A stretch of DNA of 64,000 bases from an uncultured Bryobacteraceae bacterium. GTDB lineage: Bacteria > Acidobacteriota > Terriglobia > Bryobacterales > Bryobacteraceae. The first letter of the stretch is position 1. Every line of letters starts with the position of its first letter. Location: assembly GCA_938003835.1 (NCBI GenBank), contig CALKXJ010000007.1:372001-436000 (forward strand), read 5' to 3'. Shown piece by piece: positions 9,529 through 23,702 of the stretch. A program made the position numbers and the translations under genes. The notes under the pieces are model-generated. The model was not told where the DNA came from and ran no database searches. It worked only from the letters and a program-made list of their open reading frames with translations.

Positions 9529-9580
9529 TGGACTCGGAACCTCTGATGGGCTAGAACTCTTGGATGAGGAGGCCCACCAT

Positions 9581-11227
9581 ATGGGAGTTCAGACGCTCGG
9601 ACTGATGGATCGTGCCGTCAAGCAGGACTTCGAGATCATCCAACCGGAAACCACCTACACCGGCGCGCCTATCCGGCCTGTTCCCCGAGGGTTACCGAAA
9701 AGGACCCAGTCGCTGTGCCCGGAGTGCTCCTCCACCATCGATGCCCTTCTGAGCGAAGACGAACGGGGCCGGGTGATCATGGAAAAGACCTGCCCCGCGC
9801 ACGGCTACTTCCGCGACGTCGTCTATTCGGACGCCAGACTCTACCTGAAGATGGAGGAGTGGACCTTCGGCGACAACCGCGGCGTGATGAACCCGGCGGT
9901 CCCGAACGCCACCAAGTGCCCGGACGACTGCGGCTTGTGCTCGATGCACACCTCGCATTCGGGCCTGGCCAACATCGACCTGACGAACCGGTGCAACCTC
10001 ACCTGCCCGGTCTGCTTCGCCAATGCTAACGTGGCCGGCTACCTGTATGAGCCGAACCTGGAGCAGGTCCGGCTGATGCTCCAGACCCTCCGGGAGGAAA
10101 AGCCCGTCGCCGGCCGGATCGTGCAGTTCTCGGGCGGCGAGCCCACGATTTACCCTCACTGGTTCGAAGCGCTCCGGCTGGCCAAAGAGCTCGGATTCTC
10201 CCACATCCAGTGCGCGAGCAACGGCATCCGGTTCGCCGAACCGGGGTTTGCCGAGCGCAGTCACGAGGCGGGCCTGCACACCATCTATCTGCAATTCGAC
10301 GGCGTCACCGACGACATCTACCTGCGCACCCGCGGCCGGCCGCTCCTGGAAATCAAGCTCCAGGCGGTGGAAAACATCCGCAAGGCGGGCATGAAGATCT
10401 GCCTGGTGCCCACCATCGTCCGCGGCGTCAACGACCATCAGGTAGGCGACATCGTCCGCTTCGCCATCGACAACATTGATTGCATCAGCGCCATCAGCTT
10501 CCAGCCCGTCTCCTTCACCGGGCGGATCAACCGGCGCGAGCTCGAAGAGAAGCGCTACACCATGTCCGACCTCGCGCACGACGTGCACCGTCAGACGGGC
10601 ATCTGCGATCCGTACGACGACTGGTTCCCGCTGGCCTGCGTGACGCCGTTCTCGAAGCTCGTCAGCGCGCTGCGGGGCGAACTGACCACGCACCTGTCCT
10701 GCCACCCGCACTGCTCGCTCGGGACCTATCTGTTCGTGAGCGCCGACAAGAAGGCCGTGCCGGTGACGCGCTTCATTGACGTGGGCGCGATGCTTCGCGA
10801 CATGGACGTTCTCGCGCGCAAGGCGGGCAAGGTGCACATGAAGCTCTACTCGCAGATCAGCGCCTGGAACTCACTGCGGCGGCATTTCCATGAGGACCGC
10901 GCTCCCGAGGGGCTGACCTTCTCGAAGTTTCTGGAAACCCTGCAAGGCCTCATGGACAAGCGTTACGGCCGGGGCGAAGCCGAAAAACAGGGCTTCACCT
11001 TCAAGACGCTGATGGTGGCCGGGATGCACTTCATGGATCACTACAACTACGACATCGAGCGCGTGAAGCGTTGCGTGATCCATTACGCCGCCCCCAACGG
11101 CCGCATCTACCCCTTCTGCGCCTACAACGGCGGCCCCACGTACCGCGAAAAGATCGAGAAAGATTTCTCCGTGCCCTTCGGACGCCCCGGCGCCTGCATC
11201 GGCTCCAACGGCTGCGGCCTTCACTGA
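9581..11227 (+). CDS. radical SAM protein of the tetraether-synthase (Tes) type
   Basis: Radical SAM enzyme of 548 residues. The start is ATG 9581, eight bases after GAGGAGG (9566-9572); an in-frame TTG seven codons upstream would lie on top of that ribosome site. Domains in order: a small metal site with C46/C49 (CPEC) and C71/H74 (CPAHG); a second cysteine cluster C113/C117/C120 (KCPDDCGLC); the radical SAM motif C138/C142/C145 (CNLTCPVC); the FSGGEPT glycine motif; and C-terminal cysteines in SCHPHC, RCVIHY, IYPFCAYN and CIGSNGCG. This layout matches archaeal Tes (MJ0619 type), which joins lipid tails into membrane-spanning tetraethers. Acidobacteria make membrane-spanning iso-diabolic acid, so a related tail-coupling role is a strong inference. 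The substrate is unproven. Confidence 0.85.
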   Translation: MGVQTLGLMDRAVKQDFEIIQPETTYTGAPIRPVPRGLPKRTQSLCPECSSTIDALLSEDERGRVIMEKTCPAHGYFRDVVYSDARLYLKMEEWTFGDNRGVMNPAVPNATKCPDDCGLCSMHTSHSGLANIDLTNRCNLTCPVCFANANVAGYLYEPNLEQVRLMLQTLREEKPVAGRIVQFSGGEPTIYPHWFEALRLAKELGFSHIQCASNGIRFAEPGFAERSHEAGLHTIYLQFDGVTDDIYLRTRGRPLLEIKLQAVENIRKAGMKICLVPTIVRGVNDHQVGDIVRFAIDNIDCISAISFQPVSFTGRINRRELEEKRYTMSDLAHDVHRQTGICDPYDDWFPLACVTPFSKLVSALRGELTTHLSCHPHCSLGTYLFVSADKKAVPVTRFIDVGAMLRDMDVLARKAGKVHMKLYSQISAWNSLRRHFHEDRAPEGLTFSKFLETLQGLMDKRYGRGEAEKQGFTFKTLMVAGMHFMDHYNYDIERVKRCVIHYAAPNGRIYPFCAYNGGPTYREKIEKDFSVPFGRPGACIGSNGCGLH

Positions 11228-12185: not shown

Positions 12186-13514
12186 ATGCCCGAGTTTCTC
12201 AAGCAGCGAATGCGATGGGTCTTGATCTTCTGGATGTTCATCATCAGTGCGATCGCTTACCTGGACCGCGTGAACATCTCGATTGCCGGCAGCGCCATTC
12301 AGAATGAGTTCGGCTTCTCCACCGTCGAGCTGGGCTGGGTCTTCAGCGCCTTCGTCATCGGCTACGCCCTGTTTCAGGCCCCCGGCGGGCGCCTGGCCGA
12401 TCGCTACGGGCCGCGCTGGGTGCTGACGATCGGCGTGCTCTGGTGGGGCGTCTTCACCACGGTGACCGCGCTGCTGCCCGCCGGCATCGCCCACGCTCTG
12501 GTGCTGATGATCATCATCCGCTTCGTGCTCGGCCTGGGCGAGGCGGTGGTCTACCCGGCCTCGAACCGCCTGGTGGCTGCCTGGATCCCGTCTCACGAGC
12601 GCGGCATCGCCAACGGGCTCATTTTCGCCGGCGTCGGCTTCGGAGCGGGCGTCACTCCCCCGCTCATCACCTACATGCTGATCAACTACGGCTGGCGCTG
12701 GTCGTTTTACGCCTGCGCCATCATCGGCACCCTGGCCGGCATCGTCTGGCACCTCATCGCGCGGGACAGCCCGCGAAAGCACCCGTGGACCACGCCGGCC
12801 GAGCAGGCTTACATCGAGGCCGGCCTGCCTCAAGCCAAGGCCGCCATGGAGACGCACCAGACGCTGCCCTGGGGCAAGATTCTGACCAGCAAAGACGTCC
12901 TGGCGGTAACGGCCAGCTACTTCACCTACGGCTACGTCGCCTACATCTTCTTCACCTGGTTCTTCATTTACCTGAGCAAAGTCCGCGGACTGGACCTCAA
13001 GGCGAGCGCGCTCTACGCCATGCTGCCGTTTCTGGCGATGGCCACATGCTCGCCTTTGGGCGGCTACATCGCCGACCGGCTCACCAAGCGCTACGGGCCG
13101 CGCGTGGGCCGTTGCGGCATCGCGGTGTTCGGCATCGGGCTTTCGGCGGTTTTCATCGCTCTGGCTACGCAGGTGGAAAGCGCGCGGCTGGCCAGCCTGG
13201 TGCTGGCGGGCGGAGCCGGCGCGCTGTATCTATCGCAGAGCTCGTTCTGGGCCGTGACTGCCGATATCGCCGGTCCCTCGGCCGGCTCGGTTTCCGGCCT
13301 GATGAACACGGGCGGTCAGATCGGCGGCGCCGTCACGTCGGTGCTCACGGCCATGATCGCCGAGCGCTTCGGCTGGACCGCCTCCTTCATGACGGCCGCC
13401 GGGCTCTGCGTGTTCGGTTCGCTGTTGTGGCTGGTGGTGAATCCGAACGCGCGCCTGGTGGCTGAGCCCGTCTCCGCCACAAGCGATGTTCGAGATTCTG
13501 GAGCACACCGCTGA
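12186..13514 (+). CDS. MFS transporter, anion:cation symporter (ACS)-like
   Basis: Major facilitator with about 12 membrane segments and 442 residues. The N-terminus is typical of the ACS group that imports hexuronates, galactonate, glucarate and similar acids: AYLDRVNISIAG in helix 1, then the loop signature GRLADRYGPRW between helices 2 and 3. The start is ATG 12186; a TTG nine codons earlier is in frame but lies before the AGGAGG at 12167-12172. The spacer from AGGAGG to the ATG is long, 13 bases. The 3' end overlaps the archease gene by 29 bases. The substrate is probably a sugar acid, which would suit the OtnC/OtnK pair at the left of the window, but this is inference. Confidence 0.85.
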   Translation: MPEFLKQRMRWVLIFWMFIISAIAYLDRVNISIAGSAIQNEFGFSTVELGWVFSAFVIGYALFQAPGGRLADRYGPRWVLTIGVLWWGVFTTVTALLPAGIAHALVLMIIIRFVLGLGEAVVYPASNRLVAAWIPSHERGIANGLIFAGVGFGAGVTPPLITYMLINYGWRWSFYACAIIGTLAGIVWHLIARDSPRKHPWTTPAEQAYIEAGLPQAKAAMETHQTLPWGKILTSKDVLAVTASYFTYGYVAYIFFTWFFIYLSKVRGLDLKASALYAMLPFLAMATCSPLGGYIADRLTKRYGPRVGRCGIAVFGIGLSAVFIALATQVESARLASLVLAGGAGALYLSQSSFWAVTADIAGPSAGSVSGLMNTGGQIGGAVTSVLTAMIAERFGWTASFMTAAGLCVFGSLLWLVVNPNARLVAEPVSATSDVRDSGAHR

Positions 13515-13896
13515 TATCGGGTTTCGCGCCTGGGGAGCGACGCCGGCGGAACTGTTCATCCATGCCGCGCTCGCTCTGGAGGCGATCGCTCTCGATACCT
13601 CGCAGGTCGAGGAACGCTACGTCTATCCCATCGCCGCCGCCGGCGACGACTACGAGTCGTTGCTGGTGAACTGGCTCAACGAGGTGCTGTATTATGTGGA
13701 TGGGGAGAGGGTGGTCATGGGCCGCTTCCAGGTCGACCAGATCTCCCCGGAACGGGTGAGCGGCAAAGGCTGGGGCGAGCCCCGAGACCCGGCGCGGCAT
13801 CCACCGCGGCTGGTGGTCAAGGGCGTCACCTACCACCAGCTCAGCGTCAAACAAGAGGGGGAACGCTGGGTCGCTCAGGTCTTCCTCGACATTTGA
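13486..13896 (+). CDS. archease (RtcB cofactor)
   Basis: Archease, 136 residues, the small protein that promotes guanylylation and turnover of RtcB RNA ligase. It opens with the family motif EILEHTADIGFR. Acidic residues D10, D37 and the C-terminal D135 (VFLDI) match the conserved metal-binding positions. It starts inside the end of the transporter gene and ends seven bases before rtcB, so the pair is one translational unit. That adjacency is the classic arrangement and supports the call. Confidence 0.93.
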   Translation: MFEILEHTADIGFRAWGATPAELFIHAALALEAIALDTSQVEERYVYPIAAAGDDYESLLVNWLNEVLYYVDGERVVMGRFQVDQISPERVSGKGWGEPRDPARHPPRLVVKGVTYHQLSVKQEGERWVAQVFLDI

Positions 13897-13903
13897 GCCG
13901 GCC

Positions 13904-15337
13904 ATGATCGAAGTTCATACCGAGGACGGGATCCGATTCCGCATTCCCCGGCAGGAAAGCCTCGGGATGCGCACTGACGTGCTAGTGTTCGCCAGCCCCG
14001 AGCTGATCGAGCAGATTCGCCGCGATCTCTCGCTCCGCCAGGCGGTGAACGTAGCGACGCTGCCCGGCATCGTCGGCCCGAGCCTCGCCATGCCGGACAT
14101 CCATCAGGGCTACGGCTTCCCCATCGGCGGCGTCGCCGCCACGGACTGGGAAGAGGGCGTGGTCTCGCCCGGCGGCGTCGGCTTCGACATCAACTGCGGC
14201 GTCCGGCTGGTGACCACCAACCTCGAAAAGGAAGAGGTCCGCTCGAAAATCCGGGAGCTGGTCAACCAGGCCTTCCGCGACATCCCGTGCGGCACCGGCG
14301 GGAAAGGCCGGATCGAGCTCCGCGAAAAAGAGCTGGACGAGGTGCTCGTCAAGGGCGCGCGCTGGATGCTCGAAAAAGGCTTCGCCGAGGAGCGCGACAT
14401 CGAGTGCGCTGAGGAGGGCGGGCGCCTGGAGGGCGCCGATCCGGCTCACGTCTCCAACCGGGCCAAGGAGCGCGGCCGGCCGCAGCTCGGCACCATCGGC
14501 AGCGGCAACCACTTCCTCGAGATCCAGTACGTCGAACAGATCCATCATCCCGAGGCCGCCCGGGCCATGAACCTCCATGAAGGCCAGGTGGTGGTTCTCA
14601 TCCACTGCGGCTCGCGCGGCCTCGGCCACCAGGTCTGCACCGATTTCCTCGCCGAGATGGGCTCGGCGATGAAGCGCTACGGCATCTCGCTTCCCGACCG
14701 GCAACTGGCCTGCGTGCCGATCCAGTCCGAAGAAGGACAGGCCTACCTGGCCGCGATGCGCGCCTCGGCCAATTTCGCCTGGGCCAACCGGCAGGCCATC
14801 CTGCACTTCCTGCGCGACTCCTTCCGGCGCGTCTTCGGCAACCACGTCCGGCTCACCACGCTCTATGACGTCTGCCACAACATCGCCAAACGGGAGCGGC
14901 ACGAAGTGGACGGCAAGAAGCGCGACGTGCTCGTGCACCGCAAAGGCGCCACGCGAGCCTTCCCATCCGGCCATCGCGAGATCCCGGCCGTCTATCGCCA
15001 CGTCGGCCAGCCGGTGCTCATCCCGGGAAGCATGGGCACCGCCTCCTGGATCCTCGTGGGTGCCGAGGGTGCGATGAAGGAGACTTTCGGCAGCGTCTGC
15101 CACGGCGCCGGGCGCCTGATGAGCCGCACGGCGGCCAAGAAAGGCCGCACGGCCAAACAGGTGGAGAAAGAACTCGAAGAGCGCGGCGTGATCGTTCGCA
15201 GCGAGACCAAGGACGGCATCCTCGAGGAGATCCCCGAAGCTTACAAGGACGTCGACGAAGTCATCGAAGTGGTCCACAAGGCCGGCCTGGCTCACAAGGT
15301 AGCCCGCCTGCGCCCCATGGGCGTCATCAAGGGCTGA
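13904..15337 (+). CDS. rtcB: RNA-splicing ligase RtcB
   Basis: RtcB, 477 residues, joins RNA ends carrying 2',3'-cyclic phosphate or 3'-phosphate to 5'-OH using GTP and manganese. Diagnostic motifs are present: MPDIHQGYGFPIGG, GVGFDINCGVR (metal cysteine), HCGSRGLGHQ, CHNIAKRE, and HRKGATRAFPSGH around residue 345, which includes the active-site region. The C-terminus ends in the usual AHKVARLRPMGVIKG. The archease gene lies immediately upstream. The last 11 bases overlap the 3' end of the convergent polymerase/ligase gene. The role is likely tRNA or stress-induced RNA repair. Confidence 0.96.
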   Translation: MIEVHTEDGIRFRIPRQESLGMRTDVLVFASPELIEQIRRDLSLRQAVNVATLPGIVGPSLAMPDIHQGYGFPIGGVAATDWEEGVVSPGGVGFDINCGVRLVTTNLEKEEVRSKIRELVNQAFRDIPCGTGGKGRIELREKELDEVLVKGARWMLEKGFAEERDIECAEEGGRLEGADPAHVSNRAKERGRPQLGTIGSGNHFLEIQYVEQIHHPEAARAMNLHEGQVVVLIHCGSRGLGHQVCTDFLAEMGSAMKRYGISLPDRQLACVPIQSEEGQAYLAAMRASANFAWANRQAILHFLRDSFRRVFGNHVRLTTLYDVCHNIAKRERHEVDGKKRDVLVHRKGATRAFPSGHREIPAVYRHVGQPVLIPGSMGTASWILVGAEGAMKETFGSVCHGAGRLMSRTAAKKGRTAKQVEKELEERGVIVRSETKDGILEEIPEAYKDVDEVIEVVHKAGLAHKVARLRPMGVIKG

Positions 15338-16571
15338 GCCGCCCGCGCTCGCTTGCCGAGTCCTCCGCTGCCAGCATACCGACGAACAACCAGACCCATC
15401 CGGCCACGCCCAGCCGCGCCAGCGGATAGTCCACCAGCGCGTGGGCGAATACCGCCAGCAGACCGACGCCCCAAATCGACCGAAGCGCCGGTCGCACCGC
15501 CCACAGCGCCACGGCTGCGATCAGGAACGCGAAGGGAAGCCCTGCTTCCGCGGCCCACTCCAACCAGTCGTTGTGGGCGTGGTTGACCACCAGCCCCACG
15601 TCGAAAGTGGCAAAGGCGGGGTAGACCGTCTGAAAGGTGCCCGGCCCGAAACCGGTAAGCGGCCTGGTCGCGATCATCTCGAGCGTCGAGGCCCAGATCT
15701 GGCGGCGATAGACCATCAAATCGCCTGCTTGAAAGCGCTGCCAGAGCAGCTCCCAGCCCGCCACGAATACCGCGACCGCGCTCAAAGCAAACGTCCAGGC
15801 GGCCACCCGTACGGCGTTCTCGCGCGGAAGCCTCCCCTGCCCCGAGGCCACCAGCAGCACCAGCAGGAGTTCACTGATGACAATGACCGCTCCCGCCCGT
15901 GAGCCGCTCGCCACAACCGCGCCGGCCAGCGCCGCCGCCACACCGAGGTAGAGCACTCTCGATCCCTGCCCGCTCAAGGCCCGCCAGAGCGCGATCGGAA
16001 CCGCCAGCTCGAGGAAAGCGGCGAAGTTATTCCGGTTCTGGAACGGACCGAGCACGTCGGAGTACCGGTATGGGAACAGCCAGAACATTTTGCCGTTGGG
16101 CGCGTAGAATTGCACCAGCGCCACCACGGCCACCGCCAGAGCGAACCAAAGAAACGCCTGGAGAAACCTCTCCCGGAGAGGCGTCTCCGCGAACAGGTGA
16201 GAGCCGAGCGCGACCAGCGCCAGCACGACCAGCCACGCGCTGAGAGCGCGCCAGGACACGAAGCCATATACGGTCTGCCCGGAAGCGCACAGCAGAAAGA
16301 GCCAGGCCACGCCGGCAATCGCGGCCGCCAGCGGGAAACTGATGCGGAGCCGTTCCGGCCGCATCACCAGGCGCACCGCCAGGAGGGCGCCGAGCACCAG
16401 AATCGCAACCTGAGCGATGCTCATCGGCCACCGCGGCGGCGCCCAGATGGTGAGCGTGCTCCAGGCGAGCGCCAGCGCCGCCAGCAGGGCGCCGGCGCGC
16501 TCAAACGACCGGAGAGGAGGCTCTTCGGACCAGAGATTCGTGCCGGGGGGAATCGGCCTCGGAATCTTCAT
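15327..16571 (-). CDS. O-antigen ligase/polymerase-like membrane protein (Wzy/WaaL family)
   Basis: Integral membrane protein of 414 residues with about 11-12 segments. It has the family's large periplasmic loop with GPFQNRNNFA, SGSRAG, TGFGPGTFQTVYP and VNHAHNDWLEWAAEAGLP, whose histidines and arginine are typical of O-antigen ligases and Wzy polymerases. It is the last gene of the exopolysaccharide operon, and its start lies 71 bases inside the preceding phosphoglycosyltransferase gene. With another polymerase-like gene upstream (20968-22329), one may polymerise while the other attaches the chain. Which does which cannot be read from sequence. Confidence 0.82.
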   Translation of the reverse strand: MKIPRPIPPGTNLWSEEPPLRSFERAGALLAALALAWSTLTIWAPPRWPMSIAQVAILVLGALLAVRLVMRPERLRISFPLAAAIAGVAWLFLLCASGQTVYGFVSWRALSAWLVVLALVALGSHLFAETPLRERFLQAFLWFALAVAVVALVQFYAPNGKMFWLFPYRYSDVLGPFQNRNNFAAFLELAVPIALWRALSGQGSRVLYLGVAAALAGAVVASGSRAGAVIVISELLLVLLVASGQGRLPRENAVRVAAWTFALSAVAVFVAGWELLWQRFQAGDLMVYRRQIWASTLEMIATRPLTGFGPGTFQTVYPAFATFDVGLVVNHAHNDWLEWAAEAGLPFAFLIAAVALWAVRPALRSIWGVGLLAVFAHALVDYPLARLGVAGWVWLFVGMLAAEDSASERGRLSP

Positions 16572-18045
16572 CGTAGCTTTGGATGGCGCGGGCGAGACTC
16601 AGCAGCGTCTGGGCCTCAACGCCAAAGCCCTCCGGGACGCTCTCGGAGGGGCACAGCGCCGCGAGCTTGTGCGGAAGCTCGGCCCGCAGCAGGTCGGCCA
16701 GCGGGCTGACCACACCGGGACGGACGGCCGACGCCGGCCCCCGGCTCAGCAGCACGTAATCGCGGTCCGACAGCGGCACATAGACGTGCCAGGAGGCGCG
16801 CGCCAGCCGCTCGCCCGGCTTGCGTCCATATACGCGACCGCCATAGTGCAACTCCGCGTGCGCGAAGCCCAGGCTCCGGCAGCCCTCCTCGACCGCCGCC
16901 CAGCAGCTTTCGATCGTGCCGGCGCGGGCGACCGCGCGCTCCAGGTTCACCAGCGCGATCTGCGCGCTCAGCATCTGCCGCAATTCGCCCTTGAACAACA
17001 CGCGCGTCGCCACGCCGAATTCATCGTAATCGAGCCTCTGAACCCCCGCCCAGGCTACGGCAAGAAACAGCAGGAGAACCAGCCCGCTCGATTTGCCGTA
17101 GAGGGTGCTCAAAAGCAGGGAGAAGGCGGCGCCGACGCCGCAGGCCGCATAAAGCACCAGCACGACGCGCCGCGGCCCGAATCCCAGGTCGAGCAACCGG
17201 TGATGGACGTGGCCGCGATCGGCGTCGAAGATAGGCCGGCCGCGCAGGAAACGGCGCACGATGGCGATCCCGGTATCGGCCAAAGGAACCGCCAGCGCCA
17301 CCAGCGGCGCCGTCATCCCCAGCATCGTGGCCGATTTCTGACTCCAGATCACGCCGTAGCAGCCGAGCAGAAAGCCCACCAGCAGGCTGCCGGAATCGCC
17401 CAGAAAGACCGAGGCCGGATTGAAGTTGTACCGCAGAAATCCGGCGAGCGCTCCGGCCAGCGGCAGGGTGGCTAGCGCCAAGGGCAGGTTCTGGTTGAGT
17501 AGCGCGGCGAGGAAGGCCGTCAGCGTCGCCACCAGACCCACGCCCGCCGCCAGCCCGTCGACGCCATCGATGAGGTTGAACGCATTGGCGCAGGCCACCA
17601 GCCACAGCAACGTGAGCGGCAGGGCCAGCCAGTCGGCCAGCGCGTAGCCGGCGACGTGCGAAACTTTGACGCCTCCCCAGCAGGCCAAGGAAGCGGCGGC
17701 AAGCTGCCCGGCGAGTTTCGTCGCCGGTTTCAGCCCGCGCACGTCGTCGACGAGCCCGACCAGAAAGACCAGCGAGGCCGCCGGTAGAATCGTCCAGACC
17801 AGCGGCAGCGCCAGCTCGAGGAAGTCCCCGCCTCGGAGCGGAGAGGCGAGCAGCGCCATATAGGCGAGCACGTAGGAGGCGGCGATCGGAATCCCTCCGG
17901 CGCGCGGAATCGGCCTTCCGTGCAGTTTCCTGACGCCGTCCGGCCGGTCGACAACGCCCCACCGCAAGAAGGCGTCGCGCACTACGGGCGTCAGCAGCAG
18001 CGAAAGCGCCAGCGCAACCACCGCGGTGAAGGCCGTCGAGTACAT
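16501..18045 (-). CDS. MraY/WecA-family undecaprenyl-phosphate phosphoglycosyltransferase with long C-terminal tail
   Basis: Polytopic enzyme that transfers a sugar-1-phosphate to undecaprenyl phosphate and so starts the glycan repeat unit. Family motifs in order: GLVDDVRGLKP, ANAFNLIDGVDGLAAG (catalytic aspartates), FLGDSGSLLVGF, and RGHVHHRLLDLGF (histidine motif for the cofactor). The core ends near residue 330. A further roughly 180 residues form a soluble tail, with a long helical part and a beta-rich segment (SWHVYVPLSDRDYVLLS), not found in E. coli WecA (about 370 residues). It sits at the end of the exopolysaccharide operon, nine bases after the GT4 gene. Confidence 0.88.
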   Translation of the reverse strand: MYSTAFTAVVALALSLLLTPVVRDAFLRWGVVDRPDGVRKLHGRPIPRAGGIPIAASYVLAYMALLASPLRGGDFLELALPLVWTILPAASLVFLVGLVDDVRGLKPATKLAGQLAAASLACWGGVKVSHVAGYALADWLALPLTLLWLVACANAFNLIDGVDGLAAGVGLVATLTAFLAALLNQNLPLALATLPLAGALAGFLRYNFNPASVFLGDSGSLLVGFLLGCYGVIWSQKSATMLGMTAPLVALAVPLADTGIAIVRRFLRGRPIFDADRGHVHHRLLDLGFGPRRVVLVLYAACGVGAAFSLLLSTLYGKSSGLVLLLFLAVAWAGVQRLDYDEFGVATRVLFKGELRQMLSAQIALVNLERAVARAGTIESCWAAVEEGCRSLGFAHAELHYGGRVYGRKPGERLARASWHVYVPLSDRDYVLLSRGPASAVRPGVVSPLADLLRAELPHKLAALCPSESVPEGFGVEAQTLLSLARAIQSYDEDSEADSPRHESLVRRASSPVV

Positions 18046-18054
18046 GCCTGCCTC

Positions 18055-19233
18055 TTAATCGGCCGATTTCGCCCTCGGCTCGAGTGCCGCCATGGCGCCG
18101 GACTCCCACGCGGCTTGCCGCCGCGCCCGGTAGGTCCGCTCAAGCACCCCGACCAGCCCATCGGCAGTCTTCTCCCAGGAAAAGCGTGCCGCCTGGGCCA
18201 GAGCCTTCTCGCGGAGAGCCAGCCGATAATCTTCGCCGCGCGCCACCGCCCAGATCGTCTCGGCCATGGCTTCCACGTTGCGGCCGTCGCACCATGCGAC
18301 CGCCTCGCCCGCCACCTCGCGATTCGGCTCCGTGTCGCTGGCGACGATCGCCGCTCCGCAGCCCATCGCCTCGATCAACGTGTTCGGGCAGGCCTCGAGC
18401 AGCGAGCTGAAGATGAACACACGCGCGTTCGCCATCGCGCGCGCCATGCTCTCGGCGTCCACATAGCCGAGAAAACGCATGTGGGATTCAAGACCGAGCT
18501 CGGCCACGCGCGCCCTGAGCAACCGCTCGTAGCGTGCATCGTGCGGCCCGCCGGCCACCAGCAGCGGCTCGCTCAACCCGCGCGCCCGCAGGATCGCGTA
18601 AGCCTCGGCCAGCCGAAGGAGATTCGAGTAGCCGATCATCTTCGCCGAGGCGAACAGGAACTCGGGCGGCGCCCAGCGCGGCGCCGGCCGGCCGGGCGTA
18701 AACGGGGCGCCGAGGCCATGGTGAACCACCGTGGTCTTTTCCACCAGCGGCGGCCGGCCCGCGCCCGCCACCCGGCGCGCATAGTCGGAAACACAGAGGA
18801 TGTGATCGGCCGTGCGGAGCGAAACGGCGGTCATCAGCCGCAGCACCGCGCACCGGATGCGCTTCGGCAGGCTGTTGTAGAACTCGCGATACAGGAACGG
18901 CTCCGTGTAGCGAATCGCGATGACGCGCGGCCGCGGCGCCAGCACAAGATCCGGATTGTTGGCCGTGTAGACCAGCTCGATGCCGTCGGCCCGCATCAGC
19001 GCCGGAAGCTGAAGCTGCTCGGCCAGCAGGCGCCCGGCCAGGCCGCCGCGAGGCCGAACCTCGCGGAAGACGATCTTGCGCGCCTCGAACCGGATCTTCT
19101 CGAGCGTGGCCGGCCGGCCGTAAACGAACCAGAGGTGAGGGTCCCGGCGCCGGTCGAGCACCGGCAACATCTGGCGCAGATAGGTCAGGCCCCCATAGCC
19201 GGAGCTCGGCATGGCATTGACTGCGATCCTCAT
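18055..19233 (-). CDS. glycosyltransferase family 4
   Basis: Retaining GT-B glycosyltransferase of 392 residues for the exopolysaccharide repeat unit. The N-terminal domain begins IAVNAMPSSGYGGLTYL. The C-terminal donor domain has the usual E-x7-E region, SLLEACPNTLIEAMGCGAAIVAS. The ATG (19233) overlaps the stop of the upstream GT2 gene by four bases. The sugar specificity cannot be told. Confidence 0.88.
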   Translation of the reverse strand: MRIAVNAMPSSGYGGLTYLRQMLPVLDRRRDPHLWFVYGRPATLEKIRFEARKIVFREVRPRGGLAGRLLAEQLQLPALMRADGIELVYTANNPDLVLAPRPRVIAIRYTEPFLYREFYNSLPKRIRCAVLRLMTAVSLRTADHILCVSDYARRVAGAGRPPLVEKTTVVHHGLGAPFTPGRPAPRWAPPEFLFASAKMIGYSNLLRLAEAYAILRARGLSEPLLVAGGPHDARYERLLRARVAELGLESHMRFLGYVDAESMARAMANARVFIFSSLLEACPNTLIEAMGCGAAIVASDTEPNREVAGEAVAWCDGRNVEAMAETIWAVARGEDYRLALREKALAQAARFSWEKTADGLVGVLERTYRARRQAAWESGAMAALEPRAKSAD

Positions 19234-20156
19234 GAGAGACCTCCCTGCCGCGCCCCGCGCGGTGCGGCGACCGCCGGCCAGCCGAGCGGGAGCCGCGCCA
19301 GAGCCGCGGCGGCGCACAACAGGCCCAGGCGCCCGAAGATGGCCGCGAAGGCCAGCGGATCGAGCCAGGGCCGGCTGTGATACCGCCGGTAGTAGGTCCA
19401 CATGCTCAAATGCCGCCAGGCCAGCGCCCGGTAGGGCACCCTGCGGCTGCTTTCTCCGATGGCGTGCTCGACGACAACCTCCGGGTAGTAAATCACCGGG
19501 ACGCCGCGATCGCGGGCGCGCCGGCAAAGATCGACGTCTTCGAAATAGAGGAAGAACGCCTCATCGAAGCCGCCCAGCCGATCGAAGGTCCGCCGGCTCA
19601 TCGCCATGGCGGCGCCCGAGACCCAGTCCACACGCCGCACTCCGCGGTGATCGAAATCGCGCATCAGATACTCCGCGCTCCAGGGGTTCGACGGCGCCAG
19701 CCGCGTCAGCAGCGAATGGCGTCCGGCCAGGAAGGCTCTCCACGTCGGGAAACGCCGGCAGGAAAGCTGCACCGAGCCATCCTCGTCGCGGATGGCGCAG
19801 CCCAGGATCGCCTCGGAGTATTCGGGCGAATCGAGCGCGCGCACGAGCGCCGCCAGGCCATCGCCCATCACCGCGGTGTCCGGATTCAAAAACAGCAGTT
19901 TTGCCGAGCGCGCCAGCCGGGCGCCGGCGTTCGAGGCGCTCCCGAAGCCGGCGTTGGTTCCCATCGGGTGCCACACCACGGCGGGGTGGCTCGCGAGCAA
20001 AGCGTCGCGCAAGTTTGGCCGCGAGCCGTTGTCGGCAACGATCACCTCGACGGGCTCGCCCTGGCCGGCAATCGAGCGCAGGCAGCGCGCGAGCTTCTCC
20101 TCGCTGAAGTAATTCACGATGATGACCGACAGGCTCGAAGCCTCGCTCACAATCAT
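19230..20156 (-). CDS. glycosyltransferase family 2 (rhamnosyltransferase-like)
   Basis: Inverting GT-A glycosyltransferase, 308 residues. It shows the N-terminal SVIIVNYFSEEKLARCL, a nucleotide-binding DNGS, LLFLNPDTAV (metal-binding acidic motif), and FFLYFEDVDLCRRARDRG in the acceptor half. This is the pattern of rhamnosyltransferase-like GT2 enzymes that extend lipid-linked repeats. It lies between the methyltransferase gene and the GT4 gene of the same operon. Confidence 0.87.
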   Translation of the reverse strand: MIVSEASSLSVIIVNYFSEEKLARCLRSIAGQGEPVEVIVADNGSRPNLRDALLASHPAVVWHPMGTNAGFGSASNAGARLARSAKLLFLNPDTAVMGDGLAALVRALDSPEYSEAILGCAIRDEDGSVQLSCRRFPTWRAFLAGRHSLLTRLAPSNPWSAEYLMRDFDHRGVRRVDWVSGAAMAMSRRTFDRLGGFDEAFFLYFEDVDLCRRARDRGVPVIYYPEVVVEHAIGESSRRVPYRALAWRHLSMWTYYRRYHSRPWLDPLAFAAIFGRLGLLCAAAALARLPLGWPAVAAPRGARQGGLS

Positions 20157-20190
20157 CGATCTCGCTTCCTCCTCATCCCGTCCGATCCGC

Positions 20191-20928
20191 TCAGGCGGCT
20201 TTCGCCAGCGCCGCCAGCAGGTTCATTCGGAGCGGCGCCAGCCTCTCGCTGGAGTTCACCAGGCGTTCGTAGAGCATCATGGGGTAGAACAGGACGGCGT
20301 GCCGCCGGCCGTAATAGGGCTCGGCCTCGAGATGCTGGAGCTCGATCGGAGCCAGACCGGCGGCCCGAGCGGCCCGCACGATCGCCCCGGCGGTGTTCAT
20401 CCGGTAGTAGACCGGGTACGGATCGTGCGCCCCGTCCAGATCTCTCAGCCGGTTGGCCCACTTCAGATGCAGGCTGTGCGGCAGCAGCCGCGAGCCGAGC
20501 GAAACGTAATGCCAGAGGTTCGGCGTGCGGAAACAGTAGACCCCGCCCGGCCGTAGCACCCGAGCCACCTCGCGTAGATGTCTCTCCGGCTCCCTGAGGT
20601 GCTCGATGACGTAGTTGGACACGCATCCGTCGAACGACGCGTCGCGAAACGGCAGCCGCGCCGCGTCGGAAAGACAACACGCCGCCAGAGCCGCGTTCGA
20701 GCGTAGCTCCTCGGAGACGTCAATGCCCACCAGTTCGACGAACTCGCTCAGGAACCGGCTGGTCTTGTTGTCGGGCCCGGCGCCGATTTCGAGAACCCTG
20801 CCGCCGTGCTTCAGGTGACCCAGACAAAGCCGGTGAAAGATTCCCGTCCCGTCGCGAAACGCCGGATTTGAATAGTAGTAGCGTTCGAACAGGTGCCGGG
20901 TTCCCATCAACTCGCCCCTAGCATCCAT
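20191..20928 (-). CDS. class I SAM-dependent methyltransferase
   Basis: Rossmann-fold methyltransferase of 245 residues with motif I VLEIGAGPDNKT, an acidic SAM-ribose position at GIDVS, and VSNYVIEHLREPERHL followed by RVLRPGG. In this operon it probably methylates a sugar of the exopolysaccharide or its lipid-linked precursor. It is separated from the polymerase gene by 39 bases. Confidence 0.85.
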   Translation of the reverse strand: MDARGELMGTRHLFERYYYSNPAFRDGTGIFHRLCLGHLKHGGRVLEIGAGPDNKTSRFLSEFVELVGIDVSEELRSNAALAACCLSDAARLPFRDASFDGCVSNYVIEHLREPERHLREVARVLRPGGVYCFRTPNLWHYVSLGSRLLPHSLHLKWANRLRDLDGAHDPYPVYYRMNTAGAIVRAARAAGLAPIELQHLEAEPYYGRRHAVLFYPMMLYERLVNSSERLAPLRMNLLAALAKAA

Positions 20929-20967
20929 ATCGGCTCCGCCGCGCCTCCTCGATACCTGCGCGATCTC

Positions 20968-22329
20968 CTAGCCCGGCATCACGCCGGCGCGCCAGCCCCG
21001 GGCGGCGCCCCAGTCCAAAAGAACCGGAGCCGGCCGCCTCTCCACTGCCGCGCGCAAACCGGCCCAGCGGACCACAAGCAACATCACCAAAGCCGGCACG
21101 ATCGAGGCGGAGATCACCGTGTGGATGTCTCCCCGCAGCGCAAAGGCCCAATGCAGACCCCACAGGCCCCACAGCAGGCTCGAGTCAGCCCGCCCGGACT
21201 TGAGAAAGTAGGAGGTCCAGCCGATCACGCTGCCGAAGACAAACGGGAACAGGATCCAGCCCGCCAGCCCGAAATTGGCGTAGCCCTCGCCGATGATCGA
21301 AGCTGCCAGCGACACGGTGGTGTCGAACTGGTAGCCGTACTGCCAGGCGAGCTCGCGGCCCCAGGGGATCGGCTTGTCCGGCCACATCGTGCGCGGCACG
21401 AACACCACGAGCGGCGTCAGCAGCGAGTGGCCGCGGATGAAGGTCTCCGGATGGGTATAGGTGCTGAGCACAAACTGGATCTCGTCGTTGAAGGAAAGGT
21501 GCTCGAAGATCGCGGAGACGGCCTCCTGCGCCCGGTCCTCGATCGTCAGAATGGCCTGCCCGCCCTCGAGACCCGTATCCCGGTAAAGCGTCTGCACCAG
21601 GATCGTGACCACCACGATCGGCATGGCGGCGAGAATCATCATCTTGGCGGCGCGCCGGATGCCCGGATGATCCCTCAGAGCGTAATCAAGGATGAAAAAC
21701 GAGTGCAGCCCGAAGAACAGCACCGAGCCCCGGGAGCCGCTGGCGGCCAGCACCGCCCCGGCGGCGGCCAGCGTTCCGAGCAGCAGGGCCAGGTGAAGCG
21801 GGCGCAAGCTCGGACGCCGGCACCACAGAAACAGCGTCATCAGGGCCGCAGCAAACAGATAGCCGCGCAGGTAGTGAGCCAAGCGCACCGTCGTACTCGC
21901 CTCCGAGAACACCGACCCGAGCATGAGTTCCGGCCGGTTTCGCATGGCCATCATCGTTTCGAGGGAGCCTTCGAACAGCACCGTGAAGATCACCAGCGCC
22001 AGCGTCCATGTGGCCGCCGCCAGCCACATCCACAAACGCGGGCGCATCAGAAAGCGCGGCGCCGCCGAATGGGTCAGGCGAAACAGGCGCGCCCGGCGCG
22101 CCGCCCACAGCCCACCGCCCCAGTAAGCGCCCGAGGCGGCCAGATGCAGCAGGACCAACGTGGGCGTCTCCACCACGCTGCCGTGCGGATCGTAGAGCAG
22201 AAACATCAGCGCCAGGTAGACGCCGCCGAACAGCAGCGGGTCGAGCAGCCTCTGGCGGCGCGCCACCAGCCGCAAGGCGTACAGCACCGCAGGAAGCAGG
22301 TAGACCGCACTCCACGGAGCGAATCTCAT
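20968..22329 (-). CDS. O-antigen polymerase-like membrane protein (Wzy-type)
   Basis: Polytopic membrane protein of 453 residues with about 10-12 segments, resembling Wzy/EpsG-type polymerases. A conserved part reads AASGSRGSVLFFGL, and a large periplasmic loop holds FVPRTMWPDKP and IGEGYANFGLAGW, the latter typical of O-antigen polymerases of this kind. The ATG at 22329 overlaps the flippase stop by four bases. With flippase and co-polymerase neighbours this is the best candidate for the repeat-unit polymerase. Confidence 0.8.
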   Translation of the reverse strand: MRFAPWSAVYLLPAVLYALRLVARRQRLLDPLLFGGVYLALMFLLYDPHGSVVETPTLVLLHLAASGAYWGGGLWAARRARLFRLTHSAAPRFLMRPRLWMWLAAATWTLALVIFTVLFEGSLETMMAMRNRPELMLGSVFSEASTTVRLAHYLRGYLFAAALMTLFLWCRRPSLRPLHLALLLGTLAAAGAVLAASGSRGSVLFFGLHSFFILDYALRDHPGIRRAAKMMILAAMPIVVVTILVQTLYRDTGLEGGQAILTIEDRAQEAVSAIFEHLSFNDEIQFVLSTYTHPETFIRGHSLLTPLVVFVPRTMWPDKPIPWGRELAWQYGYQFDTTVSLAASIIGEGYANFGLAGWILFPFVFGSVIGWTSYFLKSGRADSSLLWGLWGLHWAFALRGDIHTVISASIVPALVMLLVVRWAGLRAAVERRPAPVLLDWGAARGWRAGVMPG

Positions 22330-23702
22330 AAGATGTCCTCCTCCGGCACGGCCTTCCCCAGGCGCCGCCAGCAGCTTGCCTGAAAGGCCGTATGAACCAG
22401 GTAGGCGACAAGCAGGCTCCAGGCCAGGCCTCGGGCTCCGTGGCCGGGGACGAGCAGCCGGGCGGCTGCAATCAGCGTGGCGCCCCAGATGCCGTTGAAC
22501 AGCGCGGAGCGCCAGATCAGGTTCCGGCTCACCATCGCCGCGCCGACGGCGGAGTTCGCCGCCGCAAGCACCGCAGCGGCCACGAGCGGCGGAACCAGCG
22601 GCCCGCCCTCCCGGAATCCCCTGCCGTAGAGCTGCATCAGCCAGGGCGAGGCCAGCGCGATCGGAAGAGCCAGGCAGGCGGCGCCACCCGCCGAAACCAG
22701 AAGGTGCAGGGTGAACAGGCGGCGGAAGCCCGCTAGCTGGGAGGCGCCGCGAAGCCGGTGCAGGATGGGCAGAGCCGTGCGCTCGAGCACGCCGGGAACG
22801 AAAGCGATCAGCAGGCGGAACTGGTTGGCTGCGCTGAACAGCCCCATCTCGGCGTAACCGAAGGGCTGCCGGACCAGAATGGTCGAAGCAAGCCAGGTGA
22901 ATGGCACCTTCATGGAGGAGCCGAGCAGCGCCGCTACGGAGAAGCCGAGCAGGATGCGCACCTCCGCCCGGCCCGGCCACCGCCAGCAGTGAAGTCCATG
23001 GCGGCGGAACTCACGCGCCACCGCGGCGCGCGTGACCAGCACCGAGACAACGGCCGCCAGCACCAATCCCGCCACCGCGCCCGGCGTGCCGGAGCGAGCC
23101 GCGCCGCCTCCGATGAGCATTACCGTGAGAATGCCGTTCACCAGGCTGGTGGCCGCCGAGGTGCGAAAGGCCTCCAGCCCGGCGAGCGCTCCACTCTGCA
23201 CGCCCGCCAGCGGGCCACACAGCACGAGCAGCGCGGCGAAGGCCAGCGGCGACGTCAGGTGCCGGGCCCCGAGCAGCTCGGCGGCCAGCCACGGCGCCGC
23301 CGCCCAGACCGCGACGGCGCCGAGGCTGCCCGAGGCAAGGCCCAGCAGCGTGCACAACGTGAGAATTCGGGCGGCCGGCGCCGCACCCGCCTCCCGTACA
23401 AGCGCGATGTGCCGCGCCGCCGTCACGCCCAGGCCCGCCCCGGCAAAGATTCCGGCCACGCCTGCCGTGTTGTAGATGATGCTCAGTTCACCGAAGCCCT
23501 CCTTGCCCAGGAACCGGACTGCGATCAGGAACGCCAACAGGCGGAAGCCCTGGGCGAGCGCGGCGTCGGCCAGGCACCAGAAGGCGCCACGGGCGAACCG
23601 CGCTCCGACCGCGTCCGTCATCACCATCCGGCGGCCCAGCTCCGCGAGGCCGGCCCGCGCGGGCCCGCGGCTGCCGGCCGCAGCAACCGTTCCTGTCGCC
23701 AT
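22326..23702 (-). CDS. polysaccharide flippase (Wzx/MATE-like)
   Basis: MOP-superfamily transporter with about 12-14 segments and 458 residues, which would flip the lipid-linked repeat unit across the inner membrane. It starts with FARGAFWCLADAALAQGFRLLAFLIAVRFLGKEGFGELS, typed here by position: the RFLGKEGFGELS part is the Wzx hallmark. ATG 23702 is preferred. A TTG at 23711 would overlap the kinase stop by four bases. Confidence 0.85.
   Translation of the reverse strand: MATGTVAAAGSRGPARAGLAELGRRMVMTDAVGARFARGAFWCLADAALAQGFRLLAFLIAVRFLGKEGFGELSIIYNTAGVAGIFAGAGLGVTAARHIALVREAGAAPAARILTLCTLLGLASGSLGAVAVWAAAPWLAAELLGARHLTSPLAFAALLVLCGPLAGVQSGALAGLEAFRTSAATSLVNGILTVMLIGGGAARSGTPGAVAGLVLAAVVSVLVTRAAVAREFRRHGLHCWRWPGRAEVRILLGFSVAALLGSSMKVPFTWLASTILVRQPFGYAEMGLFSAANQFRLLIAFVPGVLERTALPILHRLRGASQLAGFRRLFTLHLLVSAGGAACLALPIALASPWLMQLYGRGFREGGPLVPPLVAAAVLAAANSAVGAAMVSRNLIWRSALFNGIWGATLIAAARLLVPGHGARGLAWSLLVAYLVHTAFQASCWRRLGKAVPEEDIL

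Follow-up and report, generated by a model that had tools for sequence, protein, structure and literature searches.

The 64,000-nucleotide stretch of DNA analyzed in this study (hereafter the window; positions 372,001 to 436,000 of contig CALKXJ010000007.1, from an uncultured Bryobacteraceae bacterium) carries on its plus strand, at 9581..11227, a gene that is, as judged from its sequence, a full-length bacterial tetraether synthase (Tes). Throughout the text, type A denotes the type of this gene and type B a second clade of Tes-like proteins. We lean towards the interpretation that the window enzyme (a 548-aa radical SAM protein of the Tes family) couples ether-bound iso-lipids towards branched GDGTs (brGDGTs), and that the type B paralogue is the better candidate for the formation of ester-bound iso-diabolic acid.

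The program-made list of ORFs placed the start of the window gene at a TTG (position 9560) and the end of its stop codon at 11227; we took the ATG at 9581 as the start, since a Shine-Dalgarno-like AGGAGG, read directly from the plus strand (9567..9572), lies eight nucleotides 5' of it. By direct reading the ORF is intact and of full length. Queried from residue 15 onwards (534 residues), the protein scored 574.4 bits (E 1.8e-172, cut-off 450) against the NCBIfam model NF045702 ('tetraether lipid synthase Tes'), and matched five PDB sequences by phmmer, of which only Methanocaldococcus jannaschii Tes (MJ0619; 7TOL/7TOM) was matched over the whole length (7TOL: 451.7 bits, E 3.1e-134). The identity to MJ0619 amounts to 43.6% over 500 columns, and among the 33 radical SAM matches of the window genome this protein was the only one found above the Tes cut-off. 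A structural comparison with Tes, proposed in the preliminary description, led to the same family: the AlphaFold2 model (pLDDT 84.2, pTM 0.87) has 7tom and 7tol as its best PDB matches (TMt 0.88-0.89, TMq 0.80-0.81, rmsd 3.0-3.1, about 500 columns), while the other 48 PDB rows among the matches listed reach a TMq of at most 0.33. The TrsS radical SAM (seleno)protein model (NF045646) gave 335 bits, its relatedness lying in the N-terminal region and the radical SAM region; the window protein differs from it in scoring below its cut-off of 490, with the best match confined to residues 27-326 of 534.

The ligands of the metal centers were compared in an alignment of the window protein with 31 further acidobacterial type A sequences, 24 type B sequences and MJ0619 (20 of the type A stretches were drawn from 19 of the 34 Tes-type genomes in the phylum survey; the over-cut-off genomes G002, G030 and G080 have no row). 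The rubredoxin-type mononuclear iron site, formed in MJ0619 by C9, C12, C33 and H36 (PMC9433317), aligns with C46-x2-C49 and C71-x2-H74 of the window protein (9716..9802, plus strand) and is kept in 31/31 type A rows with letters at these positions (one further row is truncated) as well as in 24/24 type B rows. The N-terminal auxiliary [4Fe-4S] site of MJ0619 is described as held by C73, C77, C80 and a 'conserved histidine' (PMC9433317), which by its position would be H83; its counterparts C113, C117, C120 and H123 (9917..9949, plus strand) recur in 32/32 type A rows and in 0/24 type B rows. The CX3CX2C motif, which holds the radical SAM cluster in MJ0619 (PMC9433317), is represented by C138-x3-C142-x2-C145 (9992..10015, plus strand; Pfam radical SAM domain PF04055 at 89.2 bits, detected together with an N-terminal zinc-ribbon-like domain) and occurs in all 32 type A and all 24 type B rows. 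At the C-terminal auxiliary [4Fe-4S] cluster, for which a labile Met439 and a conserved Tyr459 were described in MJ0619 (PMC9433317), M482 (11024..11026, plus strand) aligns with M439 and Y502 with Y459. These two residues, along with C378 (10712..10714, plus strand; aligned to C338), C498 and C513 (within 11072..11119, plus strand, which also spans Y502; aligned to C455 and C470), are invariant in 56/56 bacterial rows. As all published Tes ligands are thereby accounted for, the remaining invariant C378, C498 and C513 are likely the ligands of the C-terminal cluster.

The cysteine motifs listed in the preliminary description (C46PEC49, C71PAH74, C113PDDC117GLC120 with H123, C138NLTC142PVC145, C498 of RCVIHY and C513 of FCAYN) were all recovered, and its reading of the gene as a Tes-like radical SAM enzyme is borne out by the NF045702 score, the homology to 7TOL and the retained Tes metal ligands. 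The attribution to an acidobacterium holds as well: the top named relative of the type B paralogue (among the matches listed) is a Bryobacteraceae bin, and the family of the window genome (f1) contains Bryobacteraceae SKYG38 (G680) and ACI1 (G519). The window protein is a genuine family member in which none of the four metal sites is missing, so our best guess for its activity is tail-to-tail coupling, or else a C-H coupling closely related to it.

In comparison with archaeal Tes (GDGT-MAS), the window protein is alike in cut-off score, in the four metal sites, in the labile methionine and the tyrosine, and in fold; it differs in stemming from a bacterial genome devoid of a GGGP synthase match, and its substrate is presumably a bacterial glycerolipid. 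The roughly 44% identity to archaeal Tes could be taken to mean that the gene was acquired from archaea together with the substrate pathway, and that it serves the synthesis of isoprenoid GDGTs. We consider such a route highly improbable and rejected it, as PF01884 (GGGP synthase/PcrB) had no match in the window genome (rated 100% complete), which argues that this organism does not make archaeal lipids; of the 14 control genomes, 7 gave a match in the same search, all four archaea being among these.

The window genome encodes also a type B paralogue (C8:4112-5671, 721 aa), which scores about 324 bits (323.8 and 324.5) against NF045702 and thus falls below the cut-off of 450. In the phylogenetic tree the type B rows (n=24) form a separate clade with a support of 100/100, and MJ0619 falls within the main type A side (the tree contains a single archaeal row, is midpoint-rooted and has three type A rows on the type B side). 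Type A proteins are 39-48% and type B proteins 29-32% identical to MJ0619, and the window protein shares 33-41% identity with type B sequences. Type B thus shares with the window protein the rubredoxin site, the radical SAM motif and the C-terminal cysteines, methionine and tyrosine (all in 24/24 rows), and differs from it by being devoid of the N-terminal FeS ligands.

Several observations were made alongside this division. The three type A rows on the type B side (L033, L035 and L055) are over the cut-off and share about 47% identity with the window protein; they retain the ligands of the N-terminal cluster and are perhaps an intermediate group. Three genomes (G243, L042; G107, L052; G065, L053) carry a type A and a type B tes on the same strand at a distance of less than 8 kb (the two ORFs being separated by 245 nt in L042), and a HIT-family-like gene is found near them in all three. 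In the window genome, a Cas1-like CRISPR ORF, recognized by eye, adjoins the type B gene (L002:82-1146, on contig C8).

The two types differ in their distribution. Of the 395 genomes in a phylum-wide sample, 210 gave a Tes-like match (threshold 1e-40), and the Tes cut-off was exceeded in 34; within the class, 389/399 genomes had a Tes-like match and 50 were over the cut-off (i.e. type A). In 12 of these 50 the over-cut-off match was the only one counted, so that matches in the type B range are present in up to 377 genomes of the class (an upper bound, as individual rows were only partly checked), and type B appears near-universal in the class. In both Tes surveys no more than three candidates were scored for each genome, and in those of the ether-lipid partner genes (see below) no more than two, so the counts may be low; furthermore, a genome was taken to have type A when its score exceeded the Tes cut-off, and genomes with partial genes just below it (G667 in the class, G390 in the phylum) were counted as without. 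Family totals (f1 138, f2 145, f4 50, f87 19 and f94 7 genomes) were tallied by hand, as was the genus-level table (31, 9, 10 and 93) from the class-survey rows. The family f2, identified as Acidobacteriaceae by two named records (ZG23-2 and KBS 83) and to which we take Edaphobacter, Occallatibacter and Terracidiphilus to belong, has type A in 12 of its 145 genomes. The cultured strains Acidipila rosea, Acidipila sp. EB88, Acidobacteriaceae ZG23-2 and KBS 83 gave type B scores alone. A search of 25 named type B genomes (originating from at least 80 named type B loci) recovered type A in two, SKYG38 and Bacterium HR08 (L120 and L145); both are presumably hot-spring metagenome bins, and a connection with heat merits attention.

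This distribution bears on iso-diabolic acid, for whose tail-to-tail coupling the preliminary description had proposed the window gene as a direct candidate. The enzymatic part of the proposal stands (a Tes-family enzyme with four metal sites), while its link to this particular product is weakened by the rarity of type A (50/399) as opposed to the near-universal type B. Iso-diabolic acid accounts for 11.8-30.4% of the fatty acids in the six strains of a published Edaphobacter table (in which ethers were entered as none found), and for 26.8-49.2% in five columns of Occallatibacter/Terracidiphilus strains (PMC11354219 / PMC12935467); type A is rare in the class and in f2, where iso-diabolic acid is common (a comparison made at the level of class and family). 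With so few genomes carrying it, type A probably does not account for this acid in general. According to the published identities to archaeal Tes of Methanosarcina acetivorans (Zeng et al., PMC8941075), the homologue of Koribacter versatilis (42%) is probably type A and that of Solibacter usitatus (40%) looks like type A by identity range, while the single homologue of Edaphobacter aggregans (32%) is probably type B.

One may still envisage the window enzyme as an iso-diabolic acid synthase, which couples ester-bound iso-C15 tails while etherification proceeds independently or later. This would accord with a fold and ligands that are the same as in Tes, with a Tes crystal in which density was interpreted as phosphatidic acid from E. 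coli (PMC9433317), and with the fact that Koribacter, the bearer of the 42% homologue (PMC8941075), is reported to make iso-diabolic tetraesters (PMC13274423). We nevertheless regard it as unlikely, given that type A is confined to the minority of class and f2 genomes indicated above while iso-diabolic acid is major in cultured strains of the class, that the four cultured strains named above, compared by their genomes, show a type B score only, and that S. usitatus is described (section 4.4 of PMC10087280) as having undetectable iso-diabolic acid while making brGDGTs; the authors of that paper proposed diether coupling in this organism by one of its Tes homologues or by both.

The preferred reading, i.e. 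coupling of ether-bound lipids, finds its main support in the genes that co-occur with type A. The conversion of ester into ether bonds is attributed to Ger/PlsA-like enzymes, of which validated Ger are marked by two activation domains (2 x PF01869), and sequence alone is said to be as yet insufficient for separating Ger from PlsA (PMC13274423). The window genome harbors on contig C5 a protein of this kind (1040 aa, two PF01869 stretches plus DUF2229; hereafter Ger-I), whose end is overlapped by the ORF of a 436-aa partner. A second Ger/PlsA-like protein of the same genome (1231 aa, two PF01869 stretches) is about 25% identical to Ger-I; its two-gene unit (L185:5528-14391, on contig C19) lies, by eye, just before hypF- and hypD-like genes, which suggests a role other than in lipids. 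DUF2229 was present in 37/40 Tes-type as compared to 13/40 other class genomes (40 of the 50 Tes-type genomes, set against 40 chosen from the 349 without and of similar families); as a whole it was rejected as an ether marker, as it mixes two groups about 25% identical, and the ~1040-aa group I was taken for the main counts, with the ~1230-aa group II set aside.

At E values up to 1e-150, Ger-I was found in 37/50 class genomes with type A and in 19/349 without (399 genomes in total). Within the own family of the window genome (f1) the figures are 24/25 and 2/113, within f2 6/12 and 4/133, and within f87 3/4 and 1/15, while f90 (3/3) and f92 (1/1) offer no genomes without type A for comparison. 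Counter-examples are f4 (0/1 with type A, 11/49 without) and f94 (0/4 and 0/3). The family-stratified odds ratio between type A and Ger-I is about 59, a value that ignores kinship; since the genomes are related, p-values overstate independence, and the association within the own family may rest on few events. In the phylum sample, Ger-I-like proteins occur at ≥50% identity in 15/34 Tes-type genomes and 5/361 others, and with all matches at 1e-150 in 18/34 and 24/361, respectively. At the thresholds used, 13 of the 50 class and 19 of the 34 phylum-sample Tes-type genomes are without a Ger-like protein. As a control for anaerobic lifestyle we searched for NrdD, which was present in just 1/80 genomes; the control is thus uninformative and the counts are uncontrolled for lifestyle. 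In the eleven f4 genomes that carry Ger-I but no type A tes, type B may by itself serve the formation of ether lipids.

The genomic neighborhood was also inspected. The Ger-like pair of the window genome lies on a contig other than that of tes, and tes and Ger-I are likewise on separate contigs in the other Tes-type genomes listed in the Ger-I surveys, with the exception of G164 (L048) and G218 (L196). In these two, which belong to one genus of another family of the phylum, tes, a Ger-I-like gene and the partner gene are consecutive and co-directional, which is one independent case. Tes is separated from the Ger-like gene by 248 nt in L048 and, as read from the sequence, by 117 nt in L196; both intervals contain a perfect 14-bp inverted repeat, similar in the two (L048:7972-8003, L196:4458-4489), and a pattern scan called no terminator at the L048 repeat. 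Judging by the gaps and the repeat, tes and the Ger-like genes may be separate transcripts in these genomes.

The window gene itself is flanked by genes for an aldo-keto reductase, a 2-hydroxyacid dehydrogenase, a metallo-beta-lactamase-fold protein and an MFS transporter. As no neighbor of the window gene was found to recur in at least 3 of 21 type A loci, the context is uninformative and operon context was rejected as a functional clue. By eye, archease-like and RtcB-like genes adjoin each other at 13486-15337 of the window, and a polysaccharide block (O-antigen-ligase-like, glycosyltransferase and methyltransferase genes) occupies the minus strand at 15327-22980.

The coupling chemistry of the window enzyme would most likely be as in MJ0619, for which a successive activation of the two tail ends by two SAM molecules is reported, the first carbon being held on a sulfur of an FeS cluster (PMC9433317). 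By analogy, the radical SAM cluster would give rise to a 5'-deoxyadenosyl radical, which would abstract a hydrogen from one lipid tail end, and the resulting carbon would stay bound to sulfur in one of the auxiliary [4Fe-4S] clusters (presumably the C-terminal one, because it lies beside the lipid pocket) until the end of the other tail has been activated by a second SAM and a bond forms between the two sp3 carbons. That bacterial lipids fit the pocket follows from the above-mentioned crystal density. The tails would most likely be iso-C15 chains of ether-bearing glycerolipids, a substrate deduced from the partner genes and from Solibacter, and the product would lie on the path to brGDGTs. The ether bonds would be supplied by the Ger/PlsA-like two-gene pair on contig C5, and ester-bound iso-diabolic acid would more likely come from the type B paralogue on contig C8. 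This ether preference, together with the division of labor between type A and type B, is what we infer from the data. Two published results bear on it: E. aggregans, with its single 32% homologue, makes brGDGTs under low oxygen (PMC8941075), so that type B may suffice, and the bacterial membrane-spanning lipid synthase Mss and archaeal Tes were concluded to be selective for neither ether nor ester (PMC13274423).

The window enzyme might, alternatively, couple other unactivated carbons (yielding a macrocyclic diether, a cross-link, a carbon-sulfur or another C-H product) without making membrane-spanning lipids, since M. jannaschii Tes makes also macrocyclic archaeol (PMC9433317) and a product is not fixable from sequence. 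We hold this to be rather improbable, as the association with one Ger-like pair and the shared fold point to glycerolipid tails, and the lipid cross-linker Gms is a SPASM-type enzyme (PMC11186832). This different architecture also led us to reject a Gms-like identity for the window protein.

The gene adds to an already known family, as acidobacterial Tes homologues and their possible production of membrane-spanning lipids have been in print since 2022 (PMC8941075, PMC10087280), with a possible role of bacterial Tes homologues in brGDGT synthesis raised by Zeng et al. 2022 and Halamka et al. 2022; a screening of Black Sea genomes for Tes, Mss and Ger called the activity of bacterial Tes homologues unconfirmed (PMC11868695). 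The homologues of K. versatilis and S. usitatus (PMC8941075, PMC10087280) come from the same phylum and resemble the window protein in lying within the type A identity range, a likeness drawn from published percentages. Models of Mss (Sahonero-Canavesi 2022, as cited by others) are said to have the catalytic architecture of Tes (PMC13274423). Within the literature searched (mainly open-access main texts), we did not meet the difference in ligands between types A and B, the co-occurrence of type A with Ger-I, or the tes-Ger neighborhood.

The brGDGTs are a widely used thermometer of past climate. It is conceivable, and we put it forward tentatively, that carriage of an archaeal-type Tes together with the Ger-like pair would mark the true brGDGT producers; if so, genomes alone could identify the bacteria of soils and sediments that set the proxy. 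The finding also touches on the way in which bacteria came to share an archaeal-style membrane trait.
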